Of a stretch of 64,000 nucleotides of DNA, positions 50,304 through 51,250 are shown piece by piece (position 1 is the first letter of the stretch; every line of letters begins with the position of its first letter). Under the pieces are notes generated by a model. That model saw only the letters and a program-made list of their open reading frames with translations, was not told the DNA's origin and ran no database searches. The position numbers and the translations under genes were made by a program. Where the stretch lies: positions 2,875,411-2,939,410 of the forward strand of contig NZ_DF967965.1 in the NCBI RefSeq assembly GCF_001050195.2, read 5' to 3'. Source of the stretch: Anaerolinea thermolimosa (GTDB taxonomy: Bacteria; Chloroflexota; Anaerolineae; Anaerolineales; Anaerolineaceae).

Positions 50304-50446
50304 AAGGGCTTCCGATTTTCTCCAAGTATAACGCAAAATCATCGTTGAACGGGTCATCGCCCTGGCCTCTGAGAGAGTCCCTCGCTTTCCTTCTGAGCAT
50401 TGACCAGTTAAGGTAGAATAAAACCGGTTACTGGAGGTGCCATAAC

Positions 50447-51199
50447 ATGTCGCTTCAAATCGGCCAGATGGCCCCTGATTTCTCCCTTCCTTCCCACCTG
50501 GGTAAAAATATTCGTCTGCAAGACTTACGCGGCCGCAATGTGGTGCTGGCGTTCTTTCCACTCGCCTGGACACCGATATGAACCAGCCAGATCCCATCGT
50601 ATGAAGCCGAAATGGCCTCATTCGTGGGATTGAATACCCAGGTTCTGGGTATCAGTGTAGACCATGTGCCCTGCCTGAAGGCCTGGGCCGATCACCTTGG
50701 CGGAATCAGCTACCCTCTGTGTTCTGACTTCTGGCCCCATGGCGAGGTGGCCCGCTGTTACGGCGTATTACGCCCCGATGGATGTTCCGAACGCGCCCTG
50801 TTTGTCATCGACCGTGAGGGTATCCTCCGTTATATCGACATCCATGATTTCAACCAGCAGCCCGATAACGATGAACTGCGAGCTGTGCTCCGACAGATTG
50901 ACCCCGAAGCCGCGCTCCGGTACGATTCCCGGCCCGCGCAAGAAGAGCCCCCTCTTCCCCGTGAAGGTGTCGTCATGTATTGCACCCCGTGGTGCGATGA
51001 CTGTAAACGGGCGCGTTCCTGGCTCCGGCAGCTGGGAATTTCATACACAGAAGTAGACATCAGCCGCAGTCAGCGCGGCGCCGCACAGGTGCGTAGCTGG
51101 GCTAACGGTAACCTCACCACCCCGACCTTTGAGATTCACGGAAGGGTGATCGTCGATTTCGACATCGACCAGTTGAAACAGGCCCTCAACCTGGCCTGA
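50447..51199 (+). CDS. Selenocysteine peroxiredoxin fused to glutaredoxin (TGA = Sec45)
   Basis: 250 residues if the in-frame TGA at 50579-50581 is read as selenocysteine. ATG 50447 has CTGGAGGTG upstream. Residues 1-160 are an AhpC/TSA-type peroxiredoxin: [12 protein letters not shown], then [19 protein letters not shown], giving the catalytic motif P38xxxT42xxU45 with TGA exactly where the peroxidatic Cys codon (TGC/TGT) belongs; the active-site Arg is R116 (SERALFVID). Residues about 172-250 are a glutaredoxin with C183-x-x-C186 ([10 protein letters not shown]). A hairpin at 50598-50624 meets the bacterial SECIS pattern. It should reduce peroxides with its own attached electron donor. A conventional call would start at ATG 50612 and lose the active site. 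A nonsense mutation is the alternative, but unlikely at this exact codon with the rest of the frame intact. Confidence 0.88.
50598..50624 (+). promoter_or_regulatory. Bacterial SECIS-like hairpin in peroxiredoxin mRNA
   Basis: CGTATGAAGCC / GGCCTCATTCG pair (nine Watson-Crick pairs, T-T and A-C mismatches) around a GAAAT loop at 50609-50613. The loop begins 28 bases after the TGA. It has a G as its first base. These match the usual bSECIS rules (apical loop 3-14 nt with an early G, 16-37 nt from the UGA). It would bind SelB. Confidence 0.72.
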
Positions 51200-51210
51200 A
51201 TTTCCCGAAT

Positions 51211-51243
51211 CAAAAACCGGTGGTTGTTTACCACCGGTTTTTG
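51211..51243. terminator. Bidirectional terminator after peroxiredoxin
   Basis: Perfect 14-bp stem CAAAAACCGGTGGT / ACCACCGGTTTTTG with a TGTTT loop; A- and T-rich arms supply T-tracts in both directions, serving the peroxiredoxin gene and the convergent aldo/keto reductase gene. Confidence 0.88.
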
Positions 51244-51250
51244 AATGATC

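Follow-up and report, generated by a model that had tools for sequence, protein, structure and literature searches.

The window, i.e., the whole stretch of 64,000 nucleotides of Anaerolinea thermolimosa DNA that was analysed, carries a gene that very probably encodes a selenoprotein, in which UGA codon 45 is read as selenocysteine (Sec) by way of a SECIS element and SelB, and in which an AhpE-like peroxidase would be recycled by its own glutaredoxin (Grx) domain. At the level of sequence it is well supported that the in-frame UGA is coding, that a SECIS-like hairpin follows it, that the genome holds the Sec machinery, and that the protein combines both domains with conserved redox residues. 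From these we infer the insertion of selenium, the peroxidase activity, the order of electron transfer and the final reductant.

A peroxiredoxin joined to a glutaredoxin

The gene starts at the ATG at 50447-50449, and a PxxxTxx(C/U) motif, made up of P38, T42 and the TGA codon at residue 45, can be read directly in its product. The features on which the argument rests are as follows.

50433-50439, plus strand: Shine-Dalgarno-like GGAGGTG, read from the sequence; comparable purine runs precede the starts of most of 30 homologues
50447-51199, plus strand: Sec-peroxiredoxin/glutaredoxin fusion gene, 250 codons and a TGA stop (51197-51199), read through TGA codon 45
50459-50836, plus strand: AhpC/TSA (peroxiredoxin) domain, residues 5-130 (Pfam PF00578, E 5.7e-36)
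50579-50581, plus strand: in-frame TGA as codon 45, where the peroxidatic residue is predicted to be selenocysteine, from the sequence and homologue codons
50590-50631, plus strand: bacterial SECIS hairpin (predicted), with GAAAU as its apical loop (50609-50613), 27 nt past the UGA
50672-50674, plus strand: codon for Cys76, candidate resolving Cys, invariant in 90 distinct fusion proteins
50969-51151, plus strand: glutaredoxin domain, residues 175-235, with C179, W182 and C183xxC186 (Pfam PF00462, E 1e-11)
51210-51244, no strand assigned: perfect 15-bp inverted repeat with a 5-nt loop and A5...T5 ends, read from the sequence

An earlier note on this DNA had described a strong ribosome-binding site with an ATG at 50447, a TGA at 50579-50581 falling on the peroxidatic residue and a frame staying open to 51199, all of which direct reading confirms. 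It had expected routine gene calling to yield only a 195-residue protein from 50612, and under the standard code this is the sole open reading frame of at least 80 amino acids listed in frame within the gene. Its complete peroxiredoxin followed by a C183xxC186 glutaredoxin is borne out by the CxxC as read and by two Pfam domains above cut-off: PF00578, at 123.6 bits (cut-off 26), which together with the motif and the Arg identifies a peroxiredoxin (AhpC/TSA), and PF00462, at 45.3 bits (cut-off 22.9), which with the CxxC identifies a glutaredoxin. A glutaredoxin match at E <= 0.001 was found in 30/30 members of the set labelled A1. The predicted fold of the fusion protein has a mean pLDDT of 90.6 and a pTM of 0.79. 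Among the NCBIfam matches listed, none reaches its cut-off on the fusion protein, and automated pipelines that depend on such models would therefore probably miss it.

The long open reading frames adjoining the fusion gene lie on the opposite strand, and the inverted repeat at 51210-51244 is probably a bidirectional intrinsic terminator between the fusion gene and the convergent gene, which we take from its sequence to be an aldo/keto reductase. This repeat is absent from the output of a consensus promoter and terminator scan, which returned a single promoter-like site and a single terminator-like site, both away from the ends of the fusion gene. No operon or conserved neighbourhood was seen when the window was compared with 80 other loci; the commonest neighbour cluster occurs in seven loci, the window's excluded, and the window shares one distant neighbour cluster with three loci.

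Relatives were drawn from two sets. Within the class, 396 genomes were searched, 89 gave matches at E <= 1e-20, and the 30 best loci, including the window's own, were fetched; two further full-length rows, G013 and G049 (in which TGA-45 is the only stop), bring the class genomes with a full-length gene to 32. A scan of named genomes found 257 relatives and contributed the 80 that lie closest to the window's protein. The two sets overlap, so that 110 loci reduce to 90 distinct proteins (20 protein duplicates dropped), of which 83 are Sec and seven Cys forms, 53-74% identical to the window's protein. In all 90, which were chosen as full-length fusions, P38, T42, Sec/Cys45, C76, R116, C179, W182, C183, C186 and P226 are invariant. 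R116 is presumably the active-site Arg, and the structure of an AhpE R116A mutant is present, by its title, among the PDB fold matches.

The nearest solved relative of the peroxiredoxin domain, among the matches listed, is AhpE of M. tuberculosis (Rv2238c; PDB 1XVW, 4X0X, 5ID2; E 3.2e-27), which is also nearest by profile among the matches listed (E 4.2e-38) and in a comparison of predicted fold (rmsd 1.4 A, TM 0.93 for the target, 36% identity); the 60 solved matches listed of 151 and 166 include none named as a Prx5. AhpE differs in having a peroxidatic Cys where the fusion has Sec, in being a stand-alone chain, titled 1-Cys peroxiredoxin, where the fusion carries an extra domain, and in having, in the alignment, a Thr at the place of the invariant C76. 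For the Grx domain, the nearest solved chains are mycoredoxin-1 (Mrx1; PDB 2LQO), 3ZIT and 3ZIJ (deposited as thioredoxin), with E values of 2.3e-7, 2.2e-7 and 3e-7, respectively. A W-C-x-x-C motif is common to 2LQO and the fused domain, whereas all three are separate proteins. Taken alone, the Grx part stays under the NCBIfam cut-offs for mycoredoxin (TIGR02200, 57.5 vs 89.5 bits) and YruB (TIGR02196, 60.0 vs 88.55 bits). Mycothiol was considered as the reductant and set aside: no match to the mycothiol ligase MshC lies above cut-off in the genome, and the one match below it may be CysS.

According to the accessible text of PMC4360819, AhpE and Mrx1 occur as separate proteins and react with one another, the sulfenic acid of AhpE being reduced by Mrx1 directly or through mycothiol. 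Since the peroxiredoxin lies near AhpE and the glutaredoxin near Mrx1, the gene unites in a single chain the relatives of two proteins known to be partners, with Sec replacing the peroxidatic Cys. One chain of peroxiredoxin and glutaredoxin is likewise known from Haemophilus influenzae, where the hybrid (PGdx, hybrid Prx5) is described as a glutathione-dependent peroxidase (PMC1361801, portions available) and its structure was taken to show interaction of the two domains (PMC2757866, portions available). Compared by these partial descriptions, PGdx is called Prx 5 type, 2-Cys and glutathione-dependent, whereas the fusion here is AhpE-like and Sec-based.

Sec peroxiredoxins are also known. A 2026 review (PMC13188914), in the portions consulted, lists Sec peroxiredoxins with TxxU and also Sec glutaredoxins; PrxU of Eubacterium acidaminophilum and other Sec peroxiredoxins carry Sec at the TxxU peroxidatic position, as here, and are listed there under PF00578 without a glutaredoxin part, unlike the fusion. 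The earlier note had cited PrxU as an example of Sec at this position. Its Sec reading stands, but the closest comparison is AhpE and not PrxU, whose NCBIfam model (NF040737) gives 62.3 bits where 270 would be needed. Fusions of Sec peroxiredoxins to other domains have been reported from marine metagenomes (GOS; PMC2398784, text portions compared): Prx/PP2C, and Prx-like 3/Unknown_3 with a CxxC, join a Sec peroxiredoxin or peroxiredoxin-like protein to a further, partly CxxC-bearing, domain, as here. The partners named in these text portions are other or unknown domains, and Prx/Grx is not among them. In the literature searched, seen in part, there was no Sec-peroxiredoxin/glutaredoxin fusion, and none in Anaerolineae, although descriptions in subscription journals or supplementary files could escape such a search. 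Sec peroxiredoxins and peroxiredoxin-glutaredoxin hybrids are thus each known already, and it is the combined fusion that appears to be new.

In the proposed mechanism, SelB carrying Sec-tRNA(Sec) would bind the hairpin just past UGA-45, and selenocysteine would be inserted at the peroxidatic position of the AhpE-like peroxiredoxin. Sec45 would reduce hydroperoxides and become a selenenic acid, to be resolved by the mycoredoxin-like Grx domain, either via Cys76 or directly by Cys183; C183 and C186 would then form a disulfide, which cellular thioredoxin or a (small) thiol system would re-reduce. The Grx domain would thereby serve as an in-cis reductant. The strongest rival to this cycle, unlikely in our view if far from negligible, keeps the Sec peroxidase and assigns the Grx domain to other substrates (mixed disulfides), Sec45 being reduced by an outside thioredoxin via Cys76. 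The invariance of C76, which sits 31 residues from Sec45, makes a self-contained 2-Cys-like cycle conceivable, and related unfused Sec and Cys peroxiredoxins do exist in the class, one of them (in genome G245) at 64% identity. Set against this are the invariance of C183xxC186 in the 90 fusion proteins (chosen, as noted, for being full-length), the fact that AhpE and Mrx1, which react together, are among the closest relatives of the two domains, and the glutathione-dependent activity and domain interaction of the H. influenzae hybrid, all three literature points resting on the portions cited above. We retain recycling by the protein's own glutaredoxin as the preferred reading.

The SECIS-like hairpin and the selenocysteine machinery

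A bacterial SECIS, as defined in the accessible text of PMC1088965, has a small apical loop with a G after the UGA; such a loop was found here, and the window's own starts with G. The 54 nt from the TGA rank with the most stable stretches of the Sec genes (mean -18.9 kcal/mol, compared with -14.0 kcal/mol over sampled stretches), whereas in Cys genes the same 54 nt are ordinary (-10.7 vs -12.4 kcal/mol). Relative to synonymous-codon resamples, the native sequence is more stable in 83/83 Sec genes (mean z -2.61, 79 of them below -1), as against 3/7 Cys genes (mean z -0.13). In 80/83 Sec genes the distance from the UGA to the apical loop is 25-30 nt, and a G occupies one of the first two bases of the loop in 60/83, compared with 325/747 control folds elsewhere in genes; when a fold contained more than one hairpin, the choice fell on that closest to position 30, for controls likewise. 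RNAalifold on 16 hand-picked Sec sequences gave 13 consensus pairs, four with compensatory changes, with a small covariation term (-0.52 of -12.44 kcal/mol). It found no consensus in all 83 ungapped Sec sequences, nor in 40 of them, probably owing to differing stem registers. Rfam has no match within 50560-50680.

A second rival is a selenium switch, in which translation without selenium would restart at the internal ATG 50612 and produce a Grx-containing fragment. That ATG is in frame, 30 nt past the TGA and in the loop region of the hairpin, but the fragment would begin inside the peroxiredoxin fold, and we regard the switch as quite improbable.

The genome (4.17 Mb in six contigs, 99.99% complete, 4.69% contaminated) encodes the whole Sec machinery. 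A tRNA-Sec (75.4 bits, over cut-off; anticodon TCA by ARAGORN) lies on a separate contig of 118,868 bp, while SelA (551 bits), SelB (319 bits, some 18 kb ahead of where the window starts) and SelD (350 bits), each over cut-off, lie on the window's contig. The earlier note had named the absence of selB or selC as a reason to give up the Sec reading, and the search for selA, selB, selC and selD found all four. Contamination of the assembly was considered as an explanation and rejected, the fusion gene, SelA, SelB and SelD being on the same 3.44-Mb contig. The selD gene (G000:C1:2315532-2316464, L044) itself contains one in-frame TGA, in an N-terminal CAGUASKL segment; it is predicted from this to encode a selenoprotein, and at least one further selenoprotein is therefore expected in the genome.

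Across the class, the co-occurrence of tRNA-Sec with the TGA gene is uninformative, as tRNA-Sec is found in 27 of the 32 genomes with a full-length gene and in 310 of all 396 class genomes, i.e., there is no enrichment; one of the 27 positives, G332, passes narrowly with 50 bits (cut-off 47). The remaining five genomes all have SelB and are assemblies of 220-750 contigs, but two of them are 95% and 98% complete. Two genomes with short matches, G245 and G292, are also without tRNA-Sec, and G245 has SelB.

A third rival, that UGA-45 is translated as another amino acid (Cys, Trp or a near-cognate readthrough product), can draw on the Cys found at this site in 7/80 named-genome loci and on the fact that the Sec reading comes from sequence comparison. 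It is even less probable than a selenium switch, given the complete selA/B/C/D set, the hairpin downstream of the UGA, and the loss of that hairpin in a Cys clade whose four genomes are without tRNA-Sec and SelB. The decoding of the TGA as Sec, which the earlier note had proposed, is thus supported by the hairpin and the machinery as well as by the conserved TGA and Cys homologues described below.

Codon 45 among the relatives and the Sec/Cys exchange

The aligned codon 45 is TGA in 30/30 class loci, all of them full-length fusions with no other internal stop. In the best 80 of 257 named-genome relatives it is TGA in 73, TGC in four and TGT in three, so that the alignment of homologues suggested earlier returned only TGA or a Cys codon (the latter in 7/80). 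One of the two scan patterns contained Cys itself and favoured Cys forms, and the excess of TGA among the 80 was therefore not made by the scan patterns. Substitutions relative to four relatives fall mostly at third codon positions, before as well as after the TGA, which indicates that the part beyond it is under protein-level selection. We thus find coding selection on either side of the in-frame UGA, and Cys homologues that align at it. The reading as a pseudogene, nonsense mutation or sequencing error, with only the 195-residue remnant from 50612 being made, has in its favour that standard-code ORF finding yields that frame only, and is rejected, with virtually no credence left to it, on the conservation of TGA (in 83 of the 90 distinct proteins, the remaining seven having Cys) and the third-position bias on both sides, the Sec machinery of the genome and the lack of other stops in all 90 also speaking against it; the random stops and frameshifts in relatives that the earlier note had taken as the mark of a pseudogene were looked for, and no random stops occur in these 90 full-length proteins.

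Incomplete forms are few. G292 is a short, close class row that runs off its contig, and the class relative G367 matches only to position 70. Locus L147 (G245:C541), at 64% identity, has TGA-45 but then a TAG at position 165, beyond which no Grx match follows; it appears by sequence to be the same Sec peroxiredoxin in unfused or shortened form. G245 and G367, both weaker class hits, look shortened or broken, and this is not what a family in decay would show.

The nearest named-genome relatives are metagenome-assembled genomes titled Anaerolinea, at 73% identity. By record title, the best 80 of 257 loci are all Chloroflexota, mostly Anaerolineae, Anaerolineales, Anaerolineaceae or plain Chloroflexi, with single titles of Chloroflexus (L099) and Candidatus Aquidulcis (L124), and Ardenticatenia for L056 and L064. 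Levilinea saccharolytica KIBI-1 (L049), a cultured carrier, and Leptolinea sp. HRD-7 (L069) each have the Sec form. When 400 genomes were drawn from the phylum (E <= 1e-50), full-length matches occurred only in four of the window's own order, itself included, with one peroxiredoxin-only match outside the order. Confinement of the family to Anaerolineae would be no more than a guess.

Unfused relatives were seen as well. Nine loci in other genomes of the class (L126, L127, L129, L132, L134, L135, L136, L137 and L144) encode unfused peroxiredoxins whose peroxidatic codon is TGA; they fall into at least two types (PLAWT.VU and.FAFTA.U), and C76 is missing from 9/9 of them. It is present in the unfused Cys peroxiredoxins L128, L130, L131 and L133 among the loci examined, so its occurrence does not depend on the fusion. 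A separate glutaredoxin that closely resembles the fused one (CTEWCPGC; L143:1221-1541, minus strand), with no peroxiredoxin in the match, occurs in a genome of the same order that has SelB and no tRNA-Sec match; it would be a remnant of the fusion or its unfused ancestor. On plasmids of Phenylobacterium zucineum and Sphingomonas koreensis (L009, L010), a related Cys peroxiredoxin and a glutaredoxin are adjoining separate genes; in the S. koreensis plasmid the peroxiredoxin frame contains a TAA, and the gene table has no gene there.

On a tree built by a quick method with SH-aLRT support and a midpoint root, the Cys forms need three Sec/Cys changes, and each Cys group is nested among Sec rows, from which the direction of exchange was inferred. 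The four-member Cys clade L063, L066, L067 and L072 has a support of 100, its genes are without the hairpin, and tRNA-Sec and SelB are both missing from its genomes (4/4); in the smallest supported set that holds it, 5/6 Sec rows come from genomes with tRNA-Sec. Of the other Cys forms, L057, whose place on the tree is not starred, comes from a genome with tRNA-Sec and no SelB match, and L075 and L079, which belong to one assembly, from a genome with both. In these three Cys-type fusion genes the sequence after codon 45 still folds stably, possibly as a relic SECIS of a recent Sec-to-Cys exchange; retained folds would fit either a recent exchange or an error of assembly. Among genomes chosen from the named set, tRNA-Sec was found in 18/20 with Sec vs 2/6 with Cys (Fisher p 0.013, for cases that are not independent, four of the six Cys genomes being one clade), and one of the two Sec genomes without it has SelB.

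Taken further, a slightly favoured interpretation is that these proteins form an unnamed Anaerolineae selenoprotein family in which Sec45, Cys76 and C183xxC186 would make up a complete in-cis relay, i.e., a self-recycling hydroperoxide reductase, and that the SECIS hairpin, tRNA-Sec and SelB were lost along with at least one exchange of Sec for Cys. The selenoproteome would gain a domain architecture, a Sec peroxiredoxin with its own glutaredoxin, and a class known mostly from metagenome assemblies would have a Sec-dependent defence against peroxide whose genes are cut short by standard gene calling. If true, the family offers a natural comparison of Sec and Cys in otherwise very similar proteins, and its close Sec/Cys pairs would be material for asking why a peroxidase keeps Sec.
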